IMG/VR virus record: IMGVR_UViG_3300031586_000323
Location: 1-29,588 of that record
From: a virus
Direction: 5' to 3' (one strand)
DNA: 29,588 bases
Shown in pieces: positions 3,477 to 29,588 of this stretch (position 1 is the first letter of the stretch; each line of letters begins with the position of its first letter). A model generated the notes under the pieces. That model saw only the letters and a list, made by a program, of their open reading frames with translations. It did no database searches and was not told the DNA's origin. Both the position numbers and the translations under genes were made by a program.

Positions 3477-3668
3477 CTATATGGTCATCGCGGCGCTTTG
3501 CTCATACGTCGTGATGCGCCGCCCGCAGTAGCGACATTCACGGCGACGCAGCAACCGACCGCCCAACGCTCGGCGGGTGTAGAGCACCCGGAAATGGGCG
3601 CAGCCGCATTGAGGGCATTCGAGGCCGCGATTCTGAGTGGGCGTCCGTTTGTCGGTTGCCTGGGCCAT
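3477..3668 (-). CDS. NrdR-type zinc-ribbon protein
   Basis: This 63-residue protein consists almost wholly of one zinc ribbon: CPQCGC at residues 19-24, then VLYTRRALGGRLLRRRECRYCGRRITTYE. This closely follows the N-terminal zinc ribbon of the NrdR transcriptional repressor (CPxCG, R-rich strand, RRECxxCGxRxTTYE). The ATP-cone domain that completes NrdR is absent, so this is not a complete NrdR. It is most likely a small nucleic-acid-binding phage protein. The ATG at 3668 directly abuts the stop of the large terminase gene (0 bases between them), so it is probably translated by coupling. Similar short zinc ribbons are common near phage packaging genes, but their role is not established. Confidence 0.75.
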   Translation of the reverse strand: MAQATDKRTPTQNRGLECPQCGCAHFRVLYTRRALGGRLLRRRECRYCGRRITTYEQSAAMTI

Positions 3669-5933
3669 TTAACGCCTGCTCCTTTGCATCTCCGACAGCC
3701 GCATACGTTGTCGCCCCGGCGCGGCCTTGGCTTCCGTGCCCGGCAGCACCGCGCCTTGAATGGACGCCGCCACGGCGCAGCCGACGAGGCAGTCGAGCCA
3801 GTGATTGTCCGGCCCGCCGGCCCGGAGTTTCCATTCATCCACCACGCGGCCCCGCGCTTCGGTTCGCACGCGGTATTCGGCGGTGATGTGTTCGGCCAAG
3901 AGCTGATGGTCGGTGGGCTTGCGGCCGAAAAGCGACAGACAACCCCGATCGCCCATCGCCACGGACAACCGGGCGTGGATGAAGCTTTTCCAGTAGTTGG
4001 TGTCGATGAGAACGTGTCGCACCTGGCGACGGCCCTGCACGTTGGGGATACGCCAGTGGTGGCCGACCCGCTCGCCGCGCTTGCGTTTGTACTCGCTGAA
4101 GGGAATGCTCGACGCCCCGACGTACCGCCCGTGGCTGGGCATCACCAAGCTGGCGTGGGCGCTCTGGCGGCAGAACTGGTAGACCACATCGGTGGATTGG
4201 CCCCAGTTGGCATCGATCAGGCATCGTTCGATGCGCATCTCCGCACCGTCATCGCGCCGCCAACGACGCGACAGGTAGTCGTCGGTGAGCTTATCCAGCC
4301 CGGCGTAGATCGAGCCTTCCAGCCCCGCGCCCGGCGCGGCCCGGCCGAGCGTCTTCTGCGCTTCCCGCAGCGTGAAATACCCGCGCTGCTGGTCGGGGTA
4401 CGTTCCATAATCGACGACGTGGCCGGTGAAGTCTTCCTCCCACGCGATGACCGTGTGGAAGAGCATCTTTCCCTGCACGTCGATGAACATCGTCAGGTGG
4501 CTGGCCCCGATCGGCACACAGCCGCGCGGGTGGCCGTTGGTCTTGGCGGCGATGGCGTCGGCGGAGAGCTGATCCCCATCGCCCTCATCCTGCGGCAGCG
4601 GTTCATTCTGGTATTCGGCCCAGAAAGCCCGTTCATCCTGAAGCCGCAGGTTCATCGCGTGCTGAATGGCGGACAATTCATCCTCGTTGTGACGCTGCGG
4701 CCAGGCGATCACCGCACCGGCGTCCATCTCCTCGCGGTGCTTGCGATAGAACTCGGTGGCCTCGTGGCCGTCGCCGTCGTTGCGGAAGCTGTCCGCACGA
4801 ATCTGCGCGTACTTGTCCCAGAGCTTCTCGTTGTCCGGGAATGAATAGACCAGCTTCGTGCGCTCGCCTTGCCAGGTGGGATGCTTGTCGCGGTCGAGAA
4901 TCTGGTCGGCCATGTCGCCGGGACGGATCACCGTACACGGCATGACGCCCGCAATCTTCTGGCCCGGTCCGGCCAGGTTCAGGATCGCGCCGTTGAGTGT
5001 CTCCATCCGCGAGCGAACCTGCTGATCGCTCCGGGCCGACTCGTCGGTCTGCGGGTCATCGAGTACAACCAGCGACGGCCGCACCGCACGGCCATCGGCA
5101 CGCTTGAACTTCATGCCCCGAATGCGACTCTCGATACCCGCCACACGAATGATCGCTCCCGACGCTTTGCTGTCCGGGATGGTCGGTAGCACGATCTCGT
5201 CGGCCGTCCAGACGATCCGCGTGTGTTTGCCGCTCGCCAACTGCCCCTTGGCCCGGTTGTGAATCCGCTCCAAGGCGTGGATCGGGAACACCGCCTCGGG
5301 GTAGTCGTCGAGAAGTTGCTCGTTGGTCTCGAACTCGACCTTGATGCTTTCGAGCATGTTGCGGGCGTGTCCGGCGTCGGAGCCGATCAAACAGACGAAC
5401 TCCCGCGCCCCGGTCAGCATGGCCCAGATGCAGGCGGTTTCGGCCAGCGTGGTCTTGCCGCTGCCGCGCGGCATGGCCATGGCGAACACGCCGCCGCGCA
5501 GCACGGCCGTTTCGATCTTGGCGATCACCTTCAGGTGGTCGTCCGACCACGGCATGCAGAATGCCTCCGGGAAGTACGCTTCGCAGAAGAACCGAAAGTC
5601 GGTCGCACCCCGCGCCTTGCGCTGAAGATCGACCACTTCGGGGATGTCGCCGATGTCTCGTCCGATGGCCGACAGTTCCGCGTTGCGGGCACGGGCTGCT
5701 TCCTTCAGCGCCTCGTAGTCGGCGGGCTGCTTGTCCGGCTCCGGGTTGTGCCGCAGCCACACCAGCCACGCGGTGTAACGCAGCAGGTCGACGTGTTTCT
5801 CATCTCCGATGCGGTAGCCCGCCCGGTTGCGGTGACGGCGCAATTGCCTCTCGCTGATCACCTCGCCCAAGGGCGTGGAGTTCAGCATCCGCGTCAACAT
5901 CGACGGGCGAAGTTTGCGGGGATCAATCGCCAC
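3669..5933 (-). CDS. Terminase large subunit
   Basis: This is the DNA packaging ATPase/nuclease that powers genome translocation into the prohead and cuts the concatemer. From the chosen GTG start at 5933 (AGGAG six bases upstream) it has 754 residues. Walker A is PRGSGKTT at about 155-162 and Walker B is LVVLDD at about 288-293. The nuclease domain begins near LTMFIDVQG at about 480, with the first acidic metal ligand there. Residues 20-60 hold a compact charged segment (ISERQLRRHRNRAGYRIGD, then LLRYTAWLVWL) that resembles the winged-helix DNA-binding domain of small terminases. The frame extends further upstream to 6038, but that extension lies inside the preceding gene and lacks a good ribosome site. 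The 5' end overlaps the upstream gene by 11 bases. The family call is confident; the start is a choice. Confidence 0.93.
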   Translation of the reverse strand: MAIDPRKLRPSMLTRMLNSTPLGEVISERQLRRHRNRAGYRIGDEKHVDLLRYTAWLVWLRHNPEPDKQPADYEALKEAARARNAELSAIGRDIGDIPEVVDLQRKARGATDFRFFCEAYFPEAFCMPWSDDHLKVIAKIETAVLRGGVFAMAMPRGSGKTTLAETACIWAMLTGAREFVCLIGSDAGHARNMLESIKVEFETNEQLLDDYPEAVFPIHALERIHNRAKGQLASGKHTRIVWTADEIVLPTIPDSKASGAIIRVAGIESRIRGMKFKRADGRAVRPSLVVLDDPQTDESARSDQQVRSRMETLNGAILNLAGPGQKIAGVMPCTVIRPGDMADQILDRDKHPTWQGERTKLVYSFPDNEKLWDKYAQIRADSFRNDGDGHEATEFYRKHREEMDAGAVIAWPQRHNEDELSAIQHAMNLRLQDERAFWAEYQNEPLPQDEGDGDQLSADAIAAKTNGHPRGCVPIGASHLTMFIDVQGKMLFHTVIAWEEDFTGHVVDYGTYPDQQRGYFTLREAQKTLGRAAPGAGLEGSIYAGLDKLTDDYLSRRWRRDDGAEMRIERCLIDANWGQSTDVVYQFCRQSAHASLVMPSHGRYVGASSIPFSEYKRKRGERVGHHWRIPNVQGRRQVRHVLIDTNYWKSFIHARLSVAMGDRGCLSLFGRKPTDHQLLAEHITAEYRVRTEARGRVVDEWKLRAGGPDNHWLDCLVGCAVAASIQGAVLPGTEAKAAPGRQRMRLSEMQRSRR

Positions 5934-16406: not shown

Positions 16407-16871
16407 TTAGCGCTTCCACGGCGGGGTGTTGTCGGTCGCCGGCGCTTGGGGCTGCTGACCATTTCCATTGGCGGCGTCCTTGCGGGCGTAGCCTTTGATT
16501 TCGTTGGTCAGCTCGCCCGTGTCCTCACGGTTCTTGAGCTTGACGGTGATCACCAGCGGCAGGTTGTGCAGCTCCACGCTGTCGCGAGGCTGCATCACAC
16601 CGACGGCCCGGCAGACCGCCGACAGTTCGCCTCGGGCGATTTTGACGGCCGTGGCGTTGGAGTTGTTGAGGTTCAGGCGCGCCCAGAGGACGCGGTTCTT
16701 GAACTCGCCCTCCAGGATCGTGAACGTCAATTGCAGATAGCTGCCCGATCCGCTCTTGGTGGCTTTCATCTCCGATTCGGTGATGGCGGCGAGGTACTTG
16801 CCCGCCGGCAGCGGCTCGAAACTGGTGGTCGGTTCGACTTCGGTCGCGTTGAATCCATTGAGGTTCGCCAT
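16407..16871 (-). CDS. DUF669 protein, probable ssDNA-binding protein
   Basis: This 154-residue protein matches the phage DUF669 family: an N-terminal PLPAGKYLAAITESEMKATK, then SGSGSYLQLTFTILEGEFKN and RVLWARLNLNN, then KIARGELSAVCRAVG. The fold is predicted to be OB-like and family members sit beside recombination ATPases as single-strand DNA-binding partners. The C-terminus is disordered (about 125-150) and ends DNTPPWKR, like the flexible tails of SSB proteins but without the usual acidic DDDxPF tip. It lies 3 bases downstream of the Sak4-type ATPase gene, an arrangement common in phage recombination modules. Confidence 0.88.
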   Translation of the reverse strand: MANLNGFNATEVEPTTSFEPLPAGKYLAAITESEMKATKSGSGSYLQLTFTILEGEFKNRVLWARLNLNNSNATAVKIARGELSAVCRAVGVMQPRDSVELHNLPLVITVKLKNREDTGELTNEIKGYARKDAANGNGQQPQAPATDNTPPWKR

Positions 16872-19123: not shown

Positions 19124-19705
19124 TTAGTTGGGGCCAAGACCCGCTTTTTTGAAGTTGGCACGAATACGCTTCATGGCGTTGTCGACCTGTCGCCAGGACA
19201 CACCGAGGGACTTGGCTGTGCTGGTGATGCCGCGGGCGGCCACTTGGATGAGCAGCGTCCGGTCGTCGGGCTCCAGGTTCTGCATCGCATGCTCGATGGC
19301 TTCGCGCAGTTCAAATCGCTCGACCTCAGAGATGGGGTAGGTCCGGGTGAGACGCCGGCCGTCTTCTTCAAGCAAGACGGCACCGAGCGAGGTGATTCCC
19401 CCTTCGTACTCGACGGGCGTGCGCTCCAGCGAAACCACCTTGTGCGATTCGCAACGTTTCTGGCGTTTGCGGTAACGCAACCGCATCGCCACCCAGGTGC
19501 GGAGGGCGTTGGTGACGAAGGCCTCAAGGTTGCCCCGAACGGGGTCGAACAGGTGCGCCTTCTCGAGCAGGTAGAGGCGCATATCCTGCCGCAGATCGTC
19601 GTAGTCCGACCTGGAGAAGTCGGACCGCCGACAGAGCTGGCGGGCCTTGATGCGGATGAAGGTGACAGTGAACGGGTCCGAAACAAAGTCGTGGAGCTCG
19701 GCCAT
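19124..19705 (-). CDS. Phage-encoded sigma-70 family (ECF-like) factor
   Basis: This 193-residue protein has the two-domain layout of group 4 sigma factors. Region 2 covers about residues 12-82: YDDLRQDMRLYLLEKAHLFD, then PVRGNLEAFVTNALRTWVAM and RLRYRKRQKR, with the aromatic promoter-melting segment around TWVAMRLRY. Region 4 covers about 135-190: LEPDDRTLLIQVAARGITST, AKSLGVSWRQVDNAMKRIRA, a clear helix-turn-helix. There is no region 1.1 or 3. It should redirect host RNA polymerase to phage promoters. The ATG at 19705 follows TTGAGGAATC. It is the first gene of the early minus-strand block, downstream of a palindrome-rich control region and the neighbouring terminator. Confidence 0.88.
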   Translation of the reverse strand: MAELHDFVSDPFTVTFIRIKARQLCRRSDFSRSDYDDLRQDMRLYLLEKAHLFDPVRGNLEAFVTNALRTWVAMRLRYRKRQKRCESHKVVSLERTPVEYEGGITSLGAVLLEEDGRRLTRTYPISEVERFELREAIEHAMQNLEPDDRTLLIQVAARGITSTAKSLGVSWRQVDNAMKRIRANFKKAGLGPN

Positions 19706-19867
19706 GATTCCTCAAGGCCGATCCACTGGCTCCCGAACCAGTCAGCGATCACACAGTCGAAGGTCTGTGCCGCGACAACTTGCCGCGAGGTAACACAGGT
19801 GCGGTCGTGACTGGCCGGTATTGAGCTGGCCGGCCTCGACCGAGGCCCGTCGTGTCGCGGCTGGCGC
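19706..19867 (-). promoter_or_regulatory. Palindrome-rich control region upstream of the sigma gene
   Basis: No gene is supported. It contains the 16-base palindrome GGCCTCGACCGAGGCC at 19832-19847 and direct repeats CTGGCCGG at 19811-19818 and 19826-19833 (15-base spacing, overlapping the palindrome). Further toward the gene lies a cluster of imperfect inverted repeats around GCCGCGACAACTTGCCGCGAG. The arrangement suits repressor or activator sites controlling the phage sigma factor. I could not place confident -35 and -10 boxes. Confidence 0.4.
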
Positions 19868-19892
19868 ATAAAAAAGCGGGCCGATGGCCCGC
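19868..19892 (-). terminator. Intrinsic terminator of the XRE-ImmA-397-326 unit
   Basis: On the minus strand GCGGGCC, ATC, GGCCCGC (19892-19876) forms a perfect seven-pair hairpin followed directly by six T residues (19875-19870). It lies 34 bases beyond the stop of the 326-residue gene, so it ends that transcript and separates it from the phage early operon. Confidence 0.85.
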
Positions 19893-19925
19893 ACGCGCGT
19901 CGCTCAAGTTGTTGTCCATACAGGA

Positions 19926-20906
19926 CTAACGCCTTTCTATGAATTTCTTCGCCCTGTCGCGGCGTTGCGACGCGACAGTCCTTGAGACGGATGGGGAGTC
20001 CTCCTTAGGCATGATCTCCGCCAGCCCGCCGCGACGTTCAACGGCCCGTCTGACCTTGTCCTTGCCAATCTTCTGGCCGGTCTGTTCGGTCAGCGCATCC
20101 GCCGCCTTGCGATACGAACCGTGCTCCTTGTAGGCAGCCACATACGCATCGTCGGTGAGCAGTGACTTGATCTCGGCCTTCACCTGCCGGCGAACCATCT
20201 TCTTGCCGGTCGAACCAAGCGAGATCGCGCCGGATGATTCGGCAAGATGGTCGGCTGTCTCCACCGCATGGACAAGGGCCATGACGTCCAGAACCAGCTG
20301 ACCATCATCCCACGTCATCACCTCCGTCAGCGGGATCACTGCCGGGATTCTGCCCCGCCAGACACGCTCATCAGGACGAAGACAGGGGACCACCACAATT
20401 GTCCGCCCGCCAGGCCCCACGTGGGCCGCGATGGTCGCTGCATCGTCGTCGCCCATACGCCTCGCGAAGACCACAGGACGGGTCTTCCTGGTACCTGGGG
20501 GCCACGACGTTCGCCCCAGTCGCCAGAACCGTGCCGCAACGACCACCTGAGGCCTGCCTACAAGCCCCATAGACGTGGCGGCCGCTTTCGCCAGACCAGC
20601 GGGATTCACCTGCCAGCCATTGCACATCTCCGGCTGCACCTCGACACGCATCGACTCAGGGCACCAGATATAGAAGCGTTTCGTCGCGACGGGACCCGCG
20701 CGGATCGTGACCGGTTCGATGTGGCCGTCGGCACAGTTCGGGCACGGCGCGTACAAACCATTGGCCGCCTGACGAATCAGACCCAGGCGGCGGAACTCGT
20801 CCAACGAGCCTGGCGGCCAGATGGCGATCTCGGCGTGGTCGAAGATCCGGCCCTCGTCGTCGACGGCGGTTAGGATCAAGCCAAGCAGGTCATTCTGCGT
20901 CATCAT
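19926..20906 (-). CDS. Unrecognised protein with zinc ribbon and C-terminal HTH (326 aa)
   Basis: From the ATG at 20906 (GGAGG nine bases upstream) there are 326 residues. Residues 1-50 look like a winged helix (MTQNDLLGLILTAVDDEG, then LDEFRRLGLIRQAANGLY). A zinc ribbon follows: CPNCADGHIEP at about 55-65 and FYIWCPES with a later EMCNG. The middle (about 110-215) is alpha/beta with a strand-rich segment (RTIVVVPCLRP, then PAVIPLTEVMTWDD). Residues 250-300 contain a basic helix-turn-helix (AYVAAYKEHGSYRKAADALT, then GKDKVRRAVERRGG). I do not recognise the family. Two nucleic-acid-binding ends around a central domain suggest a sensor or DNA-targeting subunit. It overlaps the 397-residue gene by 17 bases and ends before a strong terminator. 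Confidence 0.8.
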   Translation of the reverse strand: MMTQNDLLGLILTAVDDEGRIFDHAEIAIWPPGSLDEFRRLGLIRQAANGLYAPCPNCADGHIEPVTIRAGPVATKRFYIWCPESMRVEVQPEMCNGWQVNPAGLAKAAATSMGLVGRPQVVVAARFWRLGRTSWPPGTRKTRPVVFARRMGDDDAATIAAHVGPGGRTIVVVPCLRPDERVWRGRIPAVIPLTEVMTWDDGQLVLDVMALVHAVETADHLAESSGAISLGSTGKKMVRRQVKAEIKSLLTDDAYVAAYKEHGSYRKAADALTEQTGQKIGKDKVRRAVERRGGLAEIMPKEDSPSVSRTVASQRRDRAKKFIERR

Positions 20907-22083
20907 CAACGACTACCTCCCAGAGTTTCAGGCATCGCTCGCCGACCTCACGTTTCTCGTCGGGCTTGCTCTTAAGATTGCTGGAGTTGGGGGCCGATAC
21001 GTCGAAAGTCAGCACCGGCTGGCGGCCTCGACCCTCGTGCTGGAACTTCAGGTGGAAAGTCGCCTGCAGCACACGCGTGCCGGCCGCCATAATACTCCCG
21101 GCCTTGAGCCACCGCTCGATCTTGCGGTAGATGTCGTTCGGGTGGCCTTTGGGGTCGGCCTTGATCTCGATGTAGCCGCCGCTGCCACGTGGGGCCAGGC
21201 GAAGCCGCGTGATCCGGGCCTCCTCGACACCATCCTTTGGATCGGTCGGCAGGGGGAAGTCGGGCGTGAGCAGGTGGTCTAGCTGGAACGACGGGCGCAG
21301 CGGATCGGCCGGATCGACCTCCTCGCCGAGCACCGCCTGGCAGAACGCCAACTGCAGCGGCTCCCAGACCTTCTTGCCGCCCTGGGCGAATACCTCCATC
21401 GCGCCGTCGGCGGCGTTGTAGACGAAGACATTCTCGAACACATACCGATCCGAGCGCACCGTGGGCTGATCGCTGTCGCCGTCGAACACCAGGTGCTTGT
21501 CGGGGTAGTCGTCGAGATACGCGAAGAAGTAGTCGGCCCCGCCCGATCGCCGGTAGTTCACAACCTTGCAGAACCGGCCCCGCATCTGGGTAGGCCCATA
21601 GTACGAGGTCAGCGCTTCGGCCAGAGCGTTGCGCATGGCCTCGTCCACGACGATCCGCTTCTTCGGCAGGTTGTTGCGGCGCTTCCAGTACCGTCCGGCC
21701 GCCAGGGCGTCAGCACGGGCGAACATCGCCGCCTCCTCGAACGCCTCGGGCACGTGCAGGTACACCCACATCGCCCTGTCCGCCTTGCTCACCTGGGCCT
21801 TGAACTCCTCGGCTCGCTCGGGGCAGCGCCAGAGCATCTCCTCGGCCAGCACCGCCAGCCCACGGTGGTCGGCCAATTCATTGATGTCGCGGAGGAGGAT
21901 CTGCACCTCAATCTTCGACGCTTCGTCCAGCGCCTGCCATCCTTCGAACACCGGCTCGATCTTGTGCTCGGTCAACTCATCCCACGGCACATCGCCGAGT
22001 TCGCCGCGCCGCGTGAAAAACTTACGCAGCAGAGGGTTGGCGATGTGCTTGAGAACCTTCCTTGGATCAAACGGCTTTGCCAT
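20890..22083 (-). CDS. Unrecognised 397-residue protein, partner of the 326-residue protein
   Basis: The ATG at 22083 has AGGAG eight bases upstream. The N-terminal 150 residues are helical and charged (FDPRKVLKHIANPLLRKFFT, then LLRDINELADHRGLAVLAEE). A central alpha/beta region has YYGPTQMRGRFCKVVNYRRS, then YFFAYLDDYPDKHLVFDGDS. The C-terminal third is strand-rich: RITRLRLAPRGSGGYIEIKA, then LQATFHLKFQHEGRGRQPVL and FDVSAPNSSNLK. A GGADYFFAYLDDYPD segment and GYIEIKAD hold conserved-looking acidic residues, but no known active-site motif can be assigned. I do not recognise the family. Close linkage and overlap with the next gene imply that the two products act together. Confidence 0.8.
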   Translation of the reverse strand: MAKPFDPRKVLKHIANPLLRKFFTRRGELGDVPWDELTEHKIEPVFEGWQALDEASKIEVQILLRDINELADHRGLAVLAEEMLWRCPERAEEFKAQVSKADRAMWVYLHVPEAFEEAAMFARADALAAGRYWKRRNNLPKKRIVVDEAMRNALAEALTSYYGPTQMRGRFCKVVNYRRSGGADYFFAYLDDYPDKHLVFDGDSDQPTVRSDRYVFENVFVYNAADGAMEVFAQGGKKVWEPLQLAFCQAVLGEEVDPADPLRPSFQLDHLLTPDFPLPTDPKDGVEEARITRLRLAPRGSGGYIEIKADPKGHPNDIYRKIERWLKAGSIMAAGTRVLQATFHLKFQHEGRGRQPVLTFDVSAPNSSNLKSKPDEKREVGERCLKLWEVVVDDDAE

Positions 22084-22101
22084 AACGGCGACTCCTATCT
22101 A

Positions 22102-22116
22102 CCGTTCAGTGAACGG
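22102..22116. promoter_or_regulatory. Palindromic operator candidate in front of the 397-residue gene
   Basis: CCGTTCAGTGAACGG has perfect seven-base arms around one central base. It lies 19 bases before the start codon of the 397-residue gene. The half site CCGTTCA plus the following AG recurs at 23263-23270, directly beyond the -10 box of the promoter for the XRE gene. This is what an XRE-family operator would look like, with the XRE protein of the same unit as the obvious candidate binder. Confidence 0.55.
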
Positions 22117-22130
22117 CGAACAATGGAAAG

Positions 22131-22150
22131 AAAAAAAGAGAGGACACCTC
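22131..22150 (-). terminator. Weak terminator or attenuator between ImmA and the 397-residue gene
   Basis: On the minus strand a four-pair hairpin GAGG, TGT, CCTC (22150-22140) is followed by TCT and an unbroken run of seven T residues (22137-22131). The stem is short, so full termination is doubtful. Its position just after the metallopeptidase gene and before the palindrome suggests that transcription of the two unknown genes is controlled separately. Confidence 0.4.
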
Positions 22151-22157
22151 GGCCCCC

Positions 22158-22871
22158 TCAGAACAGTCGCGGTTGAACCTTTTTCACCAGAAGCTCCAGC
22201 TTCTGCAATCGGTAGCGCATCGCTTGCGCCGACACCTCAAATCGCTCTGCCAGTGGCTTGCAGAATCGGTCCATCGCCATCCCTTCATTGGCCTGCCGGT
22301 CGGTGTGGTAGTCGCCGACCGGTAGTTCGGAGATGGCCACGGGCGTATCAGTGCCTCGCCACTGCGACCACGCTTCATAGACCAGCTCACGCGGCATCAG
22401 CACGCAGGCCGCGAAGGCGTTGGCCTGGATTTCCTCGGGGGGGTTCGCGCCGGATCGCTGCACGAAAGCCGGTTCGCAGTTCGCCTCGAAGAGTGACTTC
22501 GCCGACGGGTCGTCCATCAGGTGCTGACGATGCAGACGCCAGTGCCCCACCTCGTGGGCGAGCGTGAAGCGGTATCGCCCCAGAAGCTTGGGCCTGATCG
22601 ACGGGTCAAGCGACTGGTCCACCTTGATCATTCGGTCCCCGAACCAGATACCGCCCAGCACATCCTGGTGGCCCAGTTCGGTCTGGAGATCGGCCAGGCA
22701 GAATGCCAATTCCAGGTGAAGCTCAAGGATGTCGTCGATAGGCACTGGGGGCTTGGTCATTGACGGATGGGTTTCCGCCCACTCGTCCAGGAGCAGTTGG
22801 GCCTGGTCTTCGATCCGCTTCTCAGGCAGGAACGGCACCTTGTATTGCCGGATGGCGACGCGACGCTTCAT
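22158..22871 (-). CDS. ImmA/IrrE-family metallopeptidase
   Basis: This 237-residue protein has the zinc protease motif HEVGH at 106-110 inside RYRFTLAHEVGHWRLHR, and the third ligand E147 in EEIQANAFAACVLMPRELV. This is the hallmark of the ImmA/IrrE (DUF955) family, which cleaves or antagonises a partner XRE repressor in response to DNA damage or other signals. The C-terminal 40 residues contain a helix-turn-helix-like segment (LAERFEVSAQAMRYRLQKLE). The start overlaps the XRE stop by ATGA, so the protease and its probable substrate are made together. It could be the switch for the downstream unknown genes, or a toxin-antitoxin-like pair. Confidence 0.9.
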   Translation of the reverse strand: MKRRVAIRQYKVPFLPEKRIEDQAQLLLDEWAETHPSMTKPPVPIDDILELHLELAFCLADLQTELGHQDVLGGIWFGDRMIKVDQSLDPSIRPKLLGRYRFTLAHEVGHWRLHRQHLMDDPSAKSLFEANCEPAFVQRSGANPPEEIQANAFAACVLMPRELVYEAWSQWRGTDTPVAISELPVGDYHTDRQANEGMAMDRFCKPLAERFEVSAQAMRYRLQKLELLVKKVQPRLF

Positions 22872-23239
22872 TCTTCCTTGCCCCCATCCTTCTGCTGGTC
22901 GCGGATATGGTCGGTGAGCTTGCGAAGCTCATCGGCGGTAAGTCCTTTTGCCGCACGCAGGAGCGCCGGCATCGCCTGAGGCTCCTTCTTGATGATGTCC
23001 GTCAATTCTTCGGATACGCGACCCGCCAGGGCAACCCACTCGTCAGCGTCCTGCCCAAGCAATTCTGCTATCCTGCGGACCCGCTCTTCTGCCGGGGGCC
23101 GCTCGTTTTTTGCCTGCTCTATCTGGGAGAGGTAAGTCGGGCTGGTTTTCGACAGCTCCGCAAACTTCCGGAGGCTGTACCCCTTGGCGATGCGTGTCGC
23201 CCGGAGAAGGTCACCGAAGGTCTTTCGTGGATCATTCAT
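22868..23239 (-). CDS. XRE-family repressor paired with ImmA
   Basis: This 123-residue protein has an N-terminal Cro/C1-type helix-turn-helix: FGDLLRATRIAKGYSLRKFA, then LSKTSPTYLSQIEQAKNERP and RVRRIAELLGQDADEW (residues 8-67). The C-terminal half is helical and charged (ELTDIIKKEPQAMPALLRAA) and may bind the metallopeptidase. The ATG at 23239 has an AGGAA site. It is the first gene of the unit that starts at the promoter 23276-23304, and it probably represses that promoter through a CCGTTCA half site. Confidence 0.9.
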   Translation of the reverse strand: MNDPRKTFGDLLRATRIAKGYSLRKFAELSKTSPTYLSQIEQAKNERPPAEERVRRIAELLGQDADEWVALAGRVSEELTDIIKKEPQAMPALLRAAKGLTADELRKLTDHIRDQQKDGGKEE

Positions 23240-23275
23240 TACCGATTCCTGTTGACGAAGTTCCGTTCAGCGTTT

Positions 23276-23304
23276 AATGTACATGGACGCGACGGGCGAG
23301 TCAA
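23276..23304 (-). promoter_or_regulatory. Promoter for the XRE-ImmA unit
   Basis: On the minus strand TTGACT (23304-23299) and TACATT (23281-23276) are separated by exactly 17 bases, close to the sigma-70 consensus. The likely transcript starts about 30 bases before the XRE start codon, and the CCGTTCA half site at 23263-23269 lies across the predicted start point. Confidence 0.65.
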
Positions 23305-23491: not shown

Positions 23492-23719
23492 TTGACCAAG
23501 AGCACCGACCCTGCGGCGATGATCCGGGAGGTCCGAGCACGCCTCGAGCTCACCCAGGAGAAGTTCGCGGCCAGGTTGGGGGTGACGCTACCGACGATCA
23601 ATCGGTGGGAAAATGGCCGGACGAAACCGTCACCGCTGGCGATCCAGAACCTGCGGGAACTGATCTCCAGCATGGATGAGGAAGGCAAGGACCTGATGGC
23701 CAAGTTCTTCCGCGAATAG
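23492..23719 (+). CDS. XRE-family controller of the type I restriction operon
   Basis: This 75-residue protein begins at a TTG at 23492 with AGGAG eight bases upstream; a later ATG at codon 10 lacks such a site. Nearly the whole protein is one Cro/C1 helix-turn-helix: IREVRARLELTQEKFAARLG, then VTLPTINRWENGRTKPSPLA. The C-terminus is a short helix (LISSMDEEGKDLMAKFF). Short XRE proteins in front of restriction genes usually act as timing controllers. It is separated from hsdR by a strong ten-pair hairpin. Confidence 0.85.
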   Translation: MTKSTDPAAMIREVRARLELTQEKFAARLGVTLPTINRWENGRTKPSPLAIQNLRELISSMDEEGKDLMAKFFRE

Positions 23720-23736
23720 AGAAAGAATGCCGTTGA

Positions 23737-23762
23737 CCCCTGGCTGAAGCAGCAGCCAGGGG
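23737..23762 (+). promoter_or_regulatory. Ten-pair hairpin between the controller gene and hsdR
   Basis: CCCCTGGCTG (23737-23746), a six-base loop AAGCAG and CAGCCAGGGG (23753-23762) form a perfect stem. No T tract follows, and the hsdR ribosome site (AAGGA at 23769-23773) is only a few bases downstream. It may damp or time HsdR synthesis by attenuation, RNA processing or translation control. Confidence 0.6.
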
Positions 23763-23779
23763 GACGATAAGGAAACCGG

Positions 23780-26161
23780 ATGCCGTATAACGAAGCCGAC
23801 ACACGAGCCAAACTCATTGATCCGGCCATTCACAAGTGTGGCTGGACGGAGGATCTCATTCGGCGTGAAGAGACGGCGGGTACGGTCGAGATTATCAACG
23901 GCAAGGCCCGGCGACGCTCGCGCGGCAAGATCGACTACGTCCTCCGGGTCAAGGTCAACGTGGACACGCAGCCCGTCGCATTGGCTCTCATCGAAGCCAA
24001 GAAGGAAAGCCTCCCAGCCGGGCACGGCCTTGATCAGGCGAAGGGCTACTCAGAGTGTAAGCGGCTCAACGTTCGCTTCGTCTTCTCCTCCAACGGCCAC
24101 CAGTACGTCGAGTTCGACTGCTTCACCGGCCTAACCGCCGCTCCGAAGCCCATTGCCGAGTTTCCCAGCCCCGCCGAGCTTCGTGCCCGTTACGAGCAGG
24201 GCATGGGCTTCACCCTCGAATCGCCAGCCGCCCGGCCGCTGCTCCAGCCGTATGCCGGTGGCGAGGGTACGCGACGCTACTATCAGGACGCCGCCATCCG
24301 CGCCGTCATGGAGAAGCTTGCGAAATGCGAGGGAACCGGCGAACCCACGCGGGCGCTGCTTGCCATGGCGACGGGATGCGGCAAGACCTTCATCGCCGTC
24401 AACCTCCTCAAGCGAATCTCCGACGCGGGGCAACTCACGCGTGCCTTGTTCGTCTGCGACCGCGACGAACTCCGCACGCAGGCCGTCAAGGCCTTCCAGA
24501 ACGTCTTCGGCTCCGACGCCGCCGAGGTTTACCGTAAGCCCGACGGCACCAACAACGCCAAGAACGCCCGCATCCACGTCGCCACGTACCAGACCCTCGG
24601 AGTGGAGAACGACAACGGCGACGCCACGTTTCTGACCACCTACTACCCGGAGAACTACTTTACGCACATCGTCATCGACGAGTGCCACCGCTCGGCTTGG
24701 GGCAAGTGGTCGCAGGTGCTCACCCGCAACCGCAACGCCGTGCAAGTCGGCCTGACCGCCACGCCGCGTGAGCTCAAGTGCAAGGAGGAGACGGCCGAGG
24801 TCAAGCAGGACGCCGAGATCACCGCCAACAACATCGCCTACTTCGGCGAACCCGCTTATGAATACGACATCGCCCAAGCCATCGAGGACGGTTATCTTGC
24901 CGCCTGCGAAATCCAGAAAGGCCGCGTCAACCTGGACGACACCGGCATCTCGAAGGCTGAGATTATCGCCCGCAACCCCGTAGACGCCATCACCGGTCAG
25001 CCGCTCACGCCCGCACAGATCGATGATCTCTACGAGCGATACCAGTTCGAGGACCGCATCCTTTTGCCCGACCGTGTGCTGGCCATGTGCCAGGACCTGT
25101 TCAACTACCTCCTGGAGACCGGAGGCCCCGAGCAGAAGACCATCATCTTCTGCGCCCGCGACCGCCACGCCGACGATGTGGCCGTTTGTTTGAACAACCT
25201 CTACGCCAAGTGGTGCACCGACAACGACAAGCAGCGTCTGGACTACTACACTTTCAAGTGCACCGCAGCCAGCAGCGGCAACGATCAGCTTCCCGACCTG
25301 CGTGCTTCTTCCCGCAGCCACTTCATTGCCACCACGGTCGATCTGCTGACGACCGGCGTGGACGTCCCCTGCGTGCGGAACATCATCTTTTTCAAGTACC
25401 TCAAGTCGCCCATCAGCTTCTACCAGATGGTCGGCCGGGGCACACGCATCGACGCGCCGACGGGCAAGCTGATGTTCCGCGTCTACGACTACACCGACGC
25501 CACGCGACTCTTCGGCGAGGGCTTCATCACAAAGCCGCCTCGCACGGGCGGTGAAGGCCCCGGCCCCGGTCCGATCCCGCCGCCGCCACCGGAACCGACG
25601 ATCAGCGTCGAGGGCTTCGACGTTCACATCACCGACGCCGGACGCTTTATTGTCGCCGACGTGGACGGTAGGGCCATGCCTGTACCACTCGACGAGTACA
25701 AGGCACTCCTGGCCGCGCGGCTCGTTCAGGAAGTCCACACGCTCGACGACTTCCGCAATCGGTGGATTGACCCTCCGTCGCGGCAGGAACTGATCGACAC
25801 GCTGGTGACCTCCGGCTACTCGCCGACCGTCGTGCGGATGGTGGACGACAGGCAGGACTACGACCTTTATGACGTGCTGGCCGAACTCGGCTGGGGCATG
25901 AATCCGCGCACGCGCCACGACCGGGCAATGGCTTTTACCTACAAGCACGAAGACTGGATCAACACGCTGCCCACCCCGGCCGCCGCCACGATCCGCGCCA
26001 TCGCTAGCCAGTTTGATCGCGGCGGTACCGAGGGCCTGGAGAACCCGCAGATTTTCCAGACGCCCGAGGTCAAGGCCGCAGGTGGTTTGGGCGCGCTCCA
26101 GGCTGCGGGCAAGCCGTCCGACCTTTTACGTGAGACCAAGACGAGGATGTTTGCAGCATGA
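23780..26161 (+). CDS. hsdR: Type I restriction enzyme, HsdR subunit
   Basis: This 793-residue motor and nuclease subunit translocates DNA past the bound complex and cuts it. The N-terminal nuclease motif is KIDYVLR with D52, then IEAKKE with E72 and K74, then DQAKGY with Q86 and Y90. The SF2 helicase motifs follow: Walker A ATGCGKT at 197-203, DECH at 300-303, LTATP at about 323, and later TTVDLLTTGVDVPC and QMVGRGTRID. A proline-rich hinge (PGPIPPPPPEP) separates the motor from the C-terminal helical region that docks to the methylase complex. The length is at the short end for HsdR, as in EcoEI-like enzymes. The stop overlaps the hsdS start by ATGA. Confidence 0.95.
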   Translation: MPYNEADTRAKLIDPAIHKCGWTEDLIRREETAGTVEIINGKARRRSRGKIDYVLRVKVNVDTQPVALALIEAKKESLPAGHGLDQAKGYSECKRLNVRFVFSSNGHQYVEFDCFTGLTAAPKPIAEFPSPAELRARYEQGMGFTLESPAARPLLQPYAGGEGTRRYYQDAAIRAVMEKLAKCEGTGEPTRALLAMATGCGKTFIAVNLLKRISDAGQLTRALFVCDRDELRTQAVKAFQNVFGSDAAEVYRKPDGTNNAKNARIHVATYQTLGVENDNGDATFLTTYYPENYFTHIVIDECHRSAWGKWSQVLTRNRNAVQVGLTATPRELKCKEETAEVKQDAEITANNIAYFGEPAYEYDIAQAIEDGYLAACEIQKGRVNLDDTGISKAEIIARNPVDAITGQPLTPAQIDDLYERYQFEDRILLPDRVLAMCQDLFNYLLETGGPEQKTIIFCARDRHADDVAVCLNNLYAKWCTDNDKQRLDYYTFKCTAASSGNDQLPDLRASSRSHFIATTVDLLTTGVDVPCVRNIIFFKYLKSPISFYQMVGRGTRIDAPTGKLMFRVYDYTDATRLFGEGFITKPPRTGGEGPGPGPIPPPPPEPTISVEGFDVHITDAGRFIVADVDGRAMPVPLDEYKALLAARLVQEVHTLDDFRNRWIDPPSRQELIDTLVTSGYSPTVVRMVDDRQDYDLYDVLAELGWGMNPRTRHDRAMAFTYKHEDWINTLPTPAAATIRAIASQFDRGGTEGLENPQIFQTPEVKAAGGLGALQAAGKPSDLLRETKTRMFAA

Positions 26162-26796
26162 GTACTAACGGCAAGGTAGAACAACTGGAGTTTTTCGGGA
26201 AAGGTGCCCCATTCCCGATTCCGCCCGATTGGAGTTGGGGCTTCCTCTCCAAGGCGCTCCGGCACCGCAAGGAATGCATCACGATTGATGATGAAACCGA
26301 GTACCGGCGAGTCACGGTCCAGCTTCATGGTCGCGGCATAGTTGCGCGTGATGTAGTTAAGGGCTCGGAGATCAAGACGAAGCAGCAGAAGGTCATTCGA
26401 GCCAAGGATTTCCTTGTTGCGGAAATCGACGCCAAGATGGGCGGTTTTGGAATTGTCCCCGATTCCTTAGCGGGTGCGATAGTCAGTAGTCACTACTTCA
26501 CGTTCGAGATTGACTACGCACGGCTCCTGCCCAGTTTTCTTGACGCATTTGTCAGAGTTGGCTTTGTCACAAGGAGTATAGAGAACTCGGTTCGTGGCTC
26601 TCTCAACTACGCGGCGATTCGACCCGCACATATCCTTCGAATGCAGTTCCCATTCGCCCCCATTTCAGACCAAGAACGTGTAATACGGCGGATGATTAAG
26701 GCATCGCAGGCTATTGATGCTGCCCAGAAGCAACTGGAAGCTCTCCAATCCCTGCCGGGAGCGATCATCCGCAGGGCGATCAAGGAAGACATATAG
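26158..26796 (+). CDS. hsdS: Type I specificity subunit HsdS, half-size (one TRD)
   Basis: Typical HsdS proteins have about 400 or more residues and two target-recognition domains; this one has 212 and only one. Residues 18-175 form the single TRD, opening with PFPIPPDWSWGFLSKAL and including GSLNYAAIRPAHILRMQFPF near its end. Residues 176-208 are the conserved long helix (DQERVIRRMIKASQAIDAAQ, then KQLEALQSLPGAIIRRAIKE). Half-size HsdS proteins are known to work as homodimers that recognise a palindromic split site. The codon use and lower GC of the TRD differ from the neighbours, as expected for a domain that is exchanged between strains. It is coupled to hsdR by ATGA and lies three bases from hsdM. 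Confidence 0.9.
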   Translation: MSTNGKVEQLEFFGKGAPFPIPPDWSWGFLSKALRHRKECITIDDETEYRRVTVQLHGRGIVARDVVKGSEIKTKQQKVIRAKDFLVAEIDAKMGGFGIVPDSLAGAIVSSHYFTFEIDYARLLPSFLDAFVRVGFVTRSIENSVRGSLNYAAIRPAHILRMQFPFAPISDQERVIRRMIKASQAIDAAQKQLEALQSLPGAIIRRAIKEDI

Positions 26797-26798
26797 CG

Positions 26799-28583
26799 AT
26801 GGCGAAGCGAAAGCCCAACGGTTCAGAGAACGGCAACGGTAAGCGCCATACGACGCAGGCGTCAGTGGATCAGGCCGTCAAAAGCATCTGCGACATCATG
26901 CGGCGAGGCAACTGCGCCGGTGCGATGCAGTACGTGCCCGAATTGACATGGATTCTCTTCCTTCGCATCCTCGACGAAATGGAGTATCGCGAGGAGCAGG
27001 AAGCCGAGGCGCTGGGCGTTCGGTTCCGACCCTCGCTGGAGTCACCGTATCGCTGGCGCGACTGGGGTTCACCGCCCGAAACGTTGCCGGAGGGCCAGAC
27101 GAACAAGCGGTCCGAACTCCAGAACGCGCCGCAGAATGCCTTGTTCAACTTCATTAACATGGAGTTGCTGCCGCACTTGAAGGGCCTAAAAAACCAGCCT
27201 GACGCCGCGCCTCGACAGAAGGTCATTACTGAGATCATGACGGGCGTCGAGCGGGTCCGCATCGACACCGAGCGAAACTTTCTCGACGTGCTGGACAAGG
27301 TGCACGAGCTCACGACCGAAGCGGTGGACCCGACGCACGTCTTCACGCTGTCGCAAGTCTATGAGGGCCTGCTGCTGAAGATGGGCGAGAAGGGCAACGA
27401 TGGCGGACAGTTCTTCACGCCGCGCCAAGTCATCAAGGCGATGGTGCAGGTGATCGACCCCGGCGTCGATGACACCGTGTACGACCCTGGCTGCGGGACG
27501 GGAGGCTTCCTTGCCCAGAGCTTCGAGCACATCACGGCCAACTTGGGCAACGACGTCACACCCGACCAGCTTGAGACGCTCAAGCAGCGGACGTTCTGGG
27601 GGCGTGAGAAAGAGAATCTCGTGTATCCCGTGGCTCTAGCGAACCTCGTCCTTCATGGCATCGATAAGCCAAACCTCTGGCACGGTAACACACTCACGGG
27701 GCAAGAGTCGTATGGGGGACTGTTTGAGGGTGCACCTCAGGCCTTTGATGTGATCCTGACGAATCCTCCGTTTGGCGGAAAGGAAAGCAAAGAGGCTCAG
27801 ACCAACTTCGATTACAAAACTCGGTCAACCCAAGTTCTCTTCATGCAGCATGTTATCCGGTTGCTTTGCGACGGTGGCCGATGCGGCATAGTCGTCGACG
27901 ATGGATTTGTCTTCCGGATCGACCAAGATGCCTTTGTGAAGACGAAACGGAAGTTGCTCGACGACTGCAACCTCTGGTGCATTGTGAGTCTCCCGCCTCG
28001 TGTTTTTTCATCTGCGGGTGCTGGCGTCAAGACGAATCTGCTGTTCTTAACAAAGGGAGAGCCAACCCGGAATATCTGGTATTACGACCTTGGCAACCTA
28101 TCCGTTGGGAAGAAGAAGCCACTGACATTGCAGCACTTTGAGGAGTTCTTCCGGCTTCTGCCGTCCCTGGGCGATAGCGAGTTCTCGTGGACCGTTGACT
28201 TGGCTGAGCGCAGACAACTTGCCCATGAGGAAGCTCGTCCCTTCAAGGAGAGGGCCACCGCCACGAGTCAACAGGCTGCCCAGTGGAACGAGCGACTGAA
28301 GGATTTGAAGAAGGCCAAGCCCCGCGACGATGCGGCCGTCGAGGAAGCCGAAGCGAAGGTCAAGGAACTGACCCGTGAAGCAAAGGAACTCGCCGCCAAG
28401 GCCAAAGAGATCGAAGACGCAGTCTACGACCTCAAGGCCGTCAACCCGAACAAGAAACCGGTCGTGGACACCCGCACGCCCGAAGAACTCATGGACATCA
28501 TCGAGGCCAAGGGCAAGGAAGTCGCAGAGGCATTAGCGACCCTACGCAATGGCGCAAGGCCGCGAACGGAGGCAACGGCATGA
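26799..28583 (+). CDS. hsdM: Type I DNA methyltransferase subunit HsdM
   Basis: This 594-residue N6-adenine methyltransferase has the N-terminal helical HsdM domain (SVDQAVKSICDIMRRGN, then YVPELTWILFLRILDEMEYR), the AdoMet motif DPGCGTGGF at 229-237 and the catalytic NPPF at 322-325. FTPRQVI before motif I is also a family hallmark. After about residue 475 comes a long charged coiled coil (WNERLKDLKKAKPRDDAAVE, then KVKELTREAKELAAKAKEIE), which makes it longer than usual and probably contacts HsdS. With HsdS it methylates host DNA; with HsdR it restricts foreign DNA. The stop overlaps the SIR2 gene start by ATGA. Confidence 0.95.
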   Translation: MAKRKPNGSENGNGKRHTTQASVDQAVKSICDIMRRGNCAGAMQYVPELTWILFLRILDEMEYREEQEAEALGVRFRPSLESPYRWRDWGSPPETLPEGQTNKRSELQNAPQNALFNFINMELLPHLKGLKNQPDAAPRQKVITEIMTGVERVRIDTERNFLDVLDKVHELTTEAVDPTHVFTLSQVYEGLLLKMGEKGNDGGQFFTPRQVIKAMVQVIDPGVDDTVYDPGCGTGGFLAQSFEHITANLGNDVTPDQLETLKQRTFWGREKENLVYPVALANLVLHGIDKPNLWHGNTLTGQESYGGLFEGAPQAFDVILTNPPFGGKESKEAQTNFDYKTRSTQVLFMQHVIRLLCDGGRCGIVVDDGFVFRIDQDAFVKTKRKLLDDCNLWCIVSLPPRVFSSAGAGVKTNLLFLTKGEPTRNIWYYDLGNLSVGKKKPLTLQHFEEFFRLLPSLGDSEFSWTVDLAERRQLAHEEARPFKERATATSQQAAQWNERLKDLKKAKPRDDAAVEEAEAKVKELTREAKELAAKAKEIEDAVYDLKAVNPNKKPVVDTRTPEELMDIIEAKGKEVAEALATLRNGARPRTEATA

Positions 28584-29588
28584 ACTTCGTCCAAGATCCT
28601 ATGAGGCAGGTCGCATATTTGCAGCAGTGCCTGTCGAGCGATAAGAAGCCGCTGGGGTTGTTCCTGGGCGCGGGTTGCCCGGTTTCAGTCCAAATCGAAG
28701 ATGGCAAGACGGCATTAATACCAGACATTGCGGGAATGACGGAAGTTGTCCGGGAGAACCTATCTAAGAATAAGGAAACAAAACAGCTTCTCGGCATCCT
28801 GGACAAACACTTTGAAGAGGATGGCGAAAATGACATAAGCGTTGAAGACATGCTAAGCCATATACGCGCCCTTCGCGTTGTTGCCGGAAAAGCTAAGGTC
28901 CGGGAACTCTCAGCCGACAACCTCGACAGGCTCGACGCCGATATCTGCCAGATCATCCAGGAGTTGGTAGACAAAACGCTTCCCTCTAACGAAACGCCAT
29001 ATCATAGCACAGCCGTGTGGGCAGATGCTGTTCCTCGGGGAATGCCAGTTGAAGTGTTCACGACGAATTACGACCTCTTGATGGAACAGGCATTTGAAGA
29101 TAGCCGCGTACCATATTTTGATGGCTTTGCCGGTTCCCGAAATCCTTTTTTCGACCTCCGTGCAATGGAAGAGGACAAGCTTCCTCCACGCTGGGCCCGG
29201 CTTTGGAAGCTGCATGGTTCAATCAACTGGTTCCAGGATGCTGAAAAGGGAGTTCTTCGCGGTGCCTCAAACGAATCGGAGTTGCCGCGTGTTATTCATC
29301 CATCGCACCTGAAGTACGACGAGAGCCGAAGAATGCCTTACCTGGCCATGATCGATAGGCTTAGGGCATTCTTGAAAAAGCCATCACCTGCACTCGTGCT
29401 ATGCGGCTATTCCTTCCGAGACGACCACCTGAATGAGGTGATTGTACAAGGCCTTCAGGGCACTCAGACCGCAACCGCTTTTGCCTTGCTCTACGACGAA
29501 CTCAGCGTGTACGCCAAAGCCAAGGATCTCGCGCGCGGACGCCCTAACCTTTCTCTTCTGGCAAGGGACGGAGGATTCATAAGCGGCC
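28580..29588 (+). CDS. SIR2-like domain anti-phage protein (3' end outside window)
   Basis: The frame is open from the ATG at 28580 to the window end, giving 336 codons. SIR2-like motifs are clear: GLFLGAGCP at 26-34, FTTNYDLLMEQAF at 160-172 (N163), KLHGSINW at 210-217 (H212) and LCGYSFRDDHLN at 274-285. These match the SIR2_2 group used in bacterial defence, where the domain depletes NAD+ upon phage infection. GC and codon use are lower than in the phage genes, indicating separate acquisition. It is coupled to hsdM through a four-base overlap, so it is expressed with the restriction operon. In several known systems a HerA-like ATPase or another partner follows such a gene; the window ends too early to tell. 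Confidence 0.85.
   Translation, partial: MNFVQDPMRQVAYLQQCLSSDKKPLGLFLGAGCPVSVQIEDGKTALIPDIAGMTEVVRENLSKNKETKQLLGILDKHFEEDGENDISVEDMLSHIRALRVVAGKAKVRELSADNLDRLDADICQIIQELVDKTLPSNETPYHSTAVWADAVPRGMPVEVFTTNYDLLMEQAFEDSRVPYFDGFAGSRNPFFDLRAMEEDKLPPRWARLWKLHGSINWFQDAEKGVLRGASNESELPRVIHPSHLKYDESRRMPYLAMIDRLRAFLKKPSPALVLCGYSFRDDHLNEVIVQGLQGTQTATAFALLYDELSVYAKAKDLARGRPNLSLLARDGGFISG

Follow-up and report, generated by a model that had tools for sequence, protein, structure and literature searches.

A four-gene unit in which a repressor and a metallopeptidase precede two proteins of unnamed families is present in a 29,588-nucleotide virus record from IMG/VR (IMGVR_UViG_3300031586_000323; this whole stretch is called the window here). 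We find that the unit is real, conserved, and undescribed. On balance we favor, with modest confidence, the reading that it is an induction switch coupled to paired regulators and belongs to integrative mobile elements, of which most are temperate tailed phages infecting Planctomycetota, and not a defense system. We base this view on the origin of the window in a virus record with terminase, portal, and replication genes, the obligate pairing of the two proteins of 397 and 326 residues (p397 and p326), candidate operators at both promoters, terminators flanking the pair in close relatives, the exchangeable ends of p326 and the exchangeable cassettes around the pair, the recurrence of the gene order in a second phylum sample, and a level of p397 conservation expected of a core gene. 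The two unnamed families thereby become a testable system of a repressor-protease switch, two operators, and a coupled pair that is kept while control cassettes and cargo are swapped, and they offer a first handle on the control of lysogeny in planctomycete phages.

Architecture of the unit and its control signals

All four genes lie on the minus strand, and their open reading frame coordinates and overlaps agree with those in a first-pass annotation made from the sequence alone. The first gene (22868–23239) encodes an XRE/Cro-CI-type repressor of 123 amino acids (Pfam HTH_31, E = 1.8e-13). It overlaps by 4 bases (22868–22871) the gene for a 237-amino-acid ImmA/IrrE-type M78 metallopeptidase with an HEVGH motif (22158–22871; Pfam PF06114, Peptidase_M78/IrrE-like, E = 5.4e-13; PADLOC CapP, E = 3.1e-18). 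This adjacency of an XRE-family helix-turn-helix (HTH) repressor and an M78 (IrrE/ImmA) HEXXH protease is that of ImmR/ImmA-type modules. The p397 gene follows (20890–22083); its product is modeled as a helical N-terminal domain with two alpha/beta halves. The p326 gene (19926–20906, ATG start) overlaps it by 17 bases (20890–20906) and encodes a protein with a Zn-binding CPxC-x3-H...C motif and a C-terminal HTH-like region.

The promoter that had been predicted for the XRE gene (TTGACT-N17-TACATT, 23276–23304, minus strand) is found exactly there. A like promoter precedes the XRE gene in 21 of 47 relatives, although the window's own copy is one base short of the strict pattern used for this count. 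Candidate operator O1 (TTAAACGCTGAAC, 23265–23277) overlaps the -10 box, and candidate operator O2, composed of GTTCGCCGTTCAC and the palindrome CCGTTCACTGAACGG (22102–22121), lies between the ImmA and p397 genes, with counterparts reading ACCGTTCAGTGAACGGT in locus L002 and ACCGTTCACGGAACGGT in locus L023. With at most one mismatch, the 13-base motif GTTYACNGTTYAC is found 43 times when the 120 bases upstream of XRE and the ImmA-p397 gap are taken together for about 50 loci, compared with 6 times in all other sequence (~876 kb), a ratio that is flattering and to be taken as descriptive because the motif was read from the tested regions themselves. The enrichment supports the shared operator that the first-pass annotation had proposed. 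A simple perfect palindrome common to both promoters in every locus was sought and not found; a repeated GTTYAC half-site fits better. The conserved candidate motif stands at both places where the repressor would bind, its own promoter and the one it controls, although it is weak at O1 of the window.

Two intrinsic terminators on the minus strand bracket the pair in close relatives. Terminator t1, in the ImmA-p397 gap (22131–22159), consists of GAGGGGGCCGAGGTGTCCTCTC followed by seven T residues and has similar counterparts in close relatives, if not in all of them. Terminator t2, after p326 (19868–19892), had been noted earlier and is likewise borne out in close relatives. We rejected t1 and t2 as a family-wide feature because neither is clear beyond the close relatives.

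Conservation of the p397-p326 pair in relatives

Scans of viral and genome contigs yielded 79 distinct p397 loci, nearly all of them from Planctomycetota (mostly metagenome-assembled genomes of Phycisphaerae) and located in phages or prophages. The genes for p397 and p326 are adjacent in 78 of the 79 loci, and a sigma-like gene stands beside the pair in 73. Of the 64 loci that offer sufficient sequence, 56 have the XRE-ImmA genes immediately upstream of the pair. The repressor-protease unit with two coupled genes that the first-pass annotation had put forward is a true, conserved, and separately regulated unit, and the proposed check, co-occurrence of the pair with XRE-ImmA and defense genes across genomes, came out in its favor. 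The order XRE-ImmA-p397-p326-sigma-(exonuclease)-AAA-DUF669-RadD-primpol is kept in relatives, and the unit stands there at the head of the string of replication, terminase, and portal genes. Within the close group, p397 identity is 66–91%, as high as that of the replication proteins, and the p397 gene ranks among the most conserved of the phage, as is expected of a core gene. Overall, p397 is present in 23 of 392 Planctomycetota genomes.

More distant p397 homologues (E = 1e-9 to 1e-21) were detected in 10 of 193 genomes sampled from the phylum to which a ‘Deltaproteobacteria’ bin belongs. Several of these genomes (L191–L199) carry XRE, ImmA, p397, and a second protein, in this same order, beside a serine recombinase, a DUF2924 protein, and a protein of ~970 residues whose sequence is primase-like and has no Pfam match. 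These loci probably represent a second element family, and the same plan recurs in a second phylum sample. The second protein there resembles p326 in place, length class, and some cysteines, yet its identity to p326 is only 15–18%, and it is for this reason a candidate counterpart. One p397 record assigned to ‘Streptosporangiaceae’ was set aside: in a sample of the phylum of its genome, none of 197 other genomes carries a homologue, and its contig is therefore probably mis-binned. Searches of 50,697 phage records by tblastn gave no match to p397 or p326, and a divergent p397 gave fragments only (E = 0.7 to 0.8).

Exchange of control cassettes and cargo

Eight of the 64 loci lack XRE-ImmA upstream of the pair. 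Four of them carry instead a divergent sigma-like gene (~205 residues, as judged from sequence) and an ImmA-like gene (L004:7892-9754, L018:7890-9752, L024:5892-7751, and L047:5877-7736), the latter matching Pfam M78 in L004. Among these, L024 comes from the planctomycete strain ZRK34. A serine recombinase occupies the XRE-ImmA position in L087 and L089, and a recombinase with an HTH protein forms the control cassette in L087 and L157.

The genes further out vary as well and comprise type I restriction-modification systems, an HKD+Snf2 protein, SIR2, Hma, or recombinases. Phage, recombinase, or integrase genes accompany the pair in most cases. One element, located next to tRNA-Cys, has a tyrosine integrase gene followed in succession by p397, a p326-like gene, and a gene for a D5-type primase. 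Because the defense genes vary while the pair is constant, we regard them as exchangeable cargo, and we read the region as a mobile-element control region adjoining a cargo slot. The first-pass annotation had suggested either induced defense or mobile-element functions. Of these, mobile-element functions fits and induced defense does not. The emphasis on defense was misplaced: the unit most probably forms the switch region in temperate phages and in integrative elements related to them, although it may still have a role in superinfection exclusion. The case also serves as a caution that defense genes beside a prophage switch can be cargo and are no proof that the switch itself defends.

A covarying hairpin element precedes the sigma-like gene

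The 157-base spacer between t2 and the sigma-like gene (19706–19862) is strikingly conserved even where protein identity is ~40%. Its core is a covarying hairpin element (19765–19861, minus strand), which is a candidate leader RNA. When 34 sequences were analyzed by RNAalifold and pair counting, 92.2% of cells were paired compared with 85.0% after shuffling, and 49 double-sided changes were counted compared with 17.2; none of 500 shuffles attained either value. Pairing fell below 49% when partners were slid by 1–3 columns, a comparison that is biased toward the proposed structure because it was derived from the same sequences. The element of the window folds at -72.4 kcal/mol (z = -2.9) and matches the covariance model with 108 bits.

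By this model, the element lies directly behind p326 in most relatives, and it precedes the sigma-factor-like gene in nearly all. It is found in 10 of 14 host genomes, where each p397 locus has a single copy and the rest of the genome has none. No Rfam family reached its gathering threshold; the best was Actino-pnp, on the opposite strand, at 18.9 of 47.7 bits. Since asymmetric bulges point to an RNA rather than a duplex site, the simplest guess is a leader that would control the sigma-like gene, and we propose that planctomycete phages may have in this element a new cis-regulatory RNA. The downstream gene (19124–19705, minus strand) encodes a sigma-70-family-like protein of 193 amino acids that scores just below the cut-off for TIGR02937 (42.4 versus 42.9 bits) and below that for Pfam Sigma70_r2 (19.6 versus 24).

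Features of p397 and p326

The best reading of p397 and p326 is that they are regulators acting as a coupled pair, with DNA binding predicted for both. Neither protein has a match in Pfam, NCBIfam, or PADLOC, and the pair has no PDB entry. The earlier statement that neither belongs to a known family is correct in this respect, but p397 does match PHROG_37634 (E = 4e-35), a family of ‘unknown function’. Profile searches against PDB sequences returned short chance matches only. The AlphaFold2 model of p397 has a predicted local distance difference test (pLDDT) score of 77.6 and a predicted template modeling (pTM) score of 0.46, and the values for the p326 model are 82.7 and 0.62, respectively. 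A search of BFVD gave one weak match (E = 3.3e-4), to an uncharacterized siphovirus protein.

Residues C55, C58, and C82 of p326 are invariant in the alignment of relatives and H62 is nearly so, which bears out a Zn site where the first-pass annotation proposed a zinc ribbon. Of the two DNA-binding-like ends proposed with it, the C-terminal HTH gives a weak signal only (HTH_50 matches 8 of the 39 members, with E = 0.004 at best) and the N-terminal one did not emerge. A fold search with p326 gave no chain with a Z score of at least 5, and the Zn domain weakly resembles PSV ORF131. The C-terminal part of p326 is replaced in relatives. The homologues from L020, L021, L089, L095, L096, and L097 end in another domain of ~170 residues (FRLRGQFWELTFDG...LGRHL...) with no Pfam match, which we take to be reminiscent of the C-terminal regions of some bacterial regulators.

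A proposed induction switch and alternative explanations

In the switch that we favor, XRE would repress its own promoter at O1 and also occupy O2 before the p397-p326 genes. Under stress, ImmA may remove XRE, presumably by cleavage as for ImmA/IrrE-type proteases elsewhere, and the pair would then be produced. The two proteins are envisaged to act as one complex, in which p326, with its Zn-binding part, conserved middle, and exchangeable C-terminal DNA-binding part, would locate element-specific DNA. Its partner p397 would also bind DNA, possibly as a clamp of the RdgC/RexA/CENP-N kind. The complex could then start the early program encoded just downstream, behind the folded leader element: the sigma-like factor, RecE-like exonuclease, AAA protein, RadD-like helicase, and prim-pol. 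The closest precedents are the ImmR/ImmA modules of ICEBs1 and prophages and the DdrO/IrrE system (PMC10233336, PMC7907104). Shared features are a gene for a small XRE repressor that the M78 gene behind it overlaps, an operator motif at the repressor's own promoter, and a mobile-element setting. The two controlled genes here differ in that they belong to unnamed families, are co-directional, and are preceded by a terminator and by a further operator.

Several observations weigh against this reading. The motif is weak at O1 of the window, which has two mismatches to GTTYACNGTTYAC, and it is not found upstream where restriction genes abut XRE (L009, L014, L025, and L033); the motif in the ImmA-p397 gap is retained in these four loci. 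The stretch from t1 to p397 shows no clear promoter, and O2 could act either by blocking a promoter or as a roadblock. In two planctomycete genomes, a divergent p397-p326 pair ends an HmaA-HmaB-HmaC defense operon (L167:26-11832 and L180:7626-18501). The fold match of p397 is weak: RdgC (2owl) was the top Foldseek match in the PDB (E = 1.2e-3), and CENP-N/Chl4 was also among the best. Profile-profile comparison of p397 with RdgC gave a probability below 1%, and hhalign comparison with RexA gave 0.3–0.4%, with only four sequences on the RexA side; a more diverse alignment did not change either outcome.

Structural comparison by VIA gave Z scores of 7.6–8.0 for the best CENP-N/Chl4 chains (residues ~59–263 of p397), 6.8 for RdgC (2owy; 224 residues over 128–397, 10.2 Å), and 4.8 for Iml3 (residues 130–396), where values below 8 may reflect merely a common arrangement. 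Lambda RexA has been reported to have the RdgC/IML3/CHL4 fold, which was missed by sequence-based fold prediction, with a DALI Z score of 4.4 to RdgC (PMC11077077). The p397 model weakly resembles the RdgC/CENP-N/Iml3 fold, the same set of names as for RexA, and because the profile comparisons are negative this link is suggestive and no more. It would, if still weakly, connect a phage regulator with RdgC, RexA, and kinetochore CENP-N. We entertain only tentatively the fuller picture of a two-protein mobile-element machine, in which a kinetochore/RdgC-fold DNA clamp would work with a site-finding adaptor that has exchangeable ends and with a structured RNA controlling the sigma-like factor.

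The fold comparison bears on a possible but doubtful alternative, namely that p397 has, as a remote equivalent, the function of lambda RexA, with p326 as its partner. Such a pair would be expressed from the immunity region during lysogeny or close to it and would block other phages or tip the choice between lysis and lysogeny. As in lambda cI-rexA-rexB (PMC11077077), a pair of genes sits directly behind repressor genes, the predicted fold class of p397 is that given for RexA, and defense cargo is nearby. However, p397 has no sequence or profile similarity to RexA, which is not among the structural matches listed, and p326 is bigger than the membrane-type partner RexB and differs from it in its Zn motif and HTH-like end. 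Moreover, ImmA is present, t1 and O2 lie between the repressor genes and the pair, its own operator and terminators set the pair apart from XRE-ImmA in close relatives, and its core-gene conservation also argues against a Rex-like role.

A role as an accessory of recombination, replication, or partition seems unlikely. Here p397 would act like RdgC and be loaded by p326 at a cis site, possibly the hairpin element, for early replication or segregation of the element. Such a role would suit the RecE-like exonuclease, AAA_24, RadD-like helicase, and prim-pol genes that follow in the string, the frequency of RdgC genes in phages (445 records), and the single copy of the hairpin element that adjoins the pair in each prophage. 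Against it, p397 shows no sequence relation to RdgC and has an extra helical N-terminal domain, the pair appears to be separately regulated through the XRE operator motifs, and the element precedes the sigma-like gene with asymmetric bulges that fit an RNA more than a duplex site. Finally, an induced antiphage defense carried as cargo is improbable: defense genes recur in the neighborhood, the divergent pair ends two HmaABC operons, and the regulators match the PADLOC models for CapH (XRE, E = 2.6e-11) and CapP of the cyclic oligonucleotide-based antiphage signaling system (CBASS), but no cyclase (CD-NTase) or effector of that system is among the unit's genes, the pair has no PADLOC match and mostly accompanies phage, recombinase, or integrase genes, and it is constant while the cargo, complete without it where known, changes.

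Setting of the unit in the window

The window is a linear contig that may be incomplete. The large terminase, portal, and replication genes are on the same strand as the unit. Downstream of the pair, this string begins with the sigma-like protein, the RecE-like exonuclease (DUF3799; PHROG exonuclease VIII), AAA_24, DUF669 (16407–16871), and DUF4406. Then come the RadD-like helicase and prim-pol, an HNH protein, a fusion of ParB and methylase, the large terminase, and portal. No integrase gene was recognized among the window proteins searched.

On the other side, adjacent cargo on the plus strand (23492–29588, identified by library matches) comprises an XRE gene, type I R, S, and M genes, and SIR2, and runs off the contig. 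The restriction-SIR2 island beside the unit described by the first-pass annotation was thereby confirmed, and its type I R, S, M, and SIR2 genes (23780–29588) read away from the unit. In the Hma-linked locus L180, a possible recombinase gene was located by eye only at 3619–5367. In the window, the SIR2 gene (28580–29588, plus strand; PADLOC SIR2, E = 2e-129) lies directly behind type I R-S-M and leaves the contig, and the type I S protein beside it has only 212 amino acids, the size of a half-length specificity subunit.

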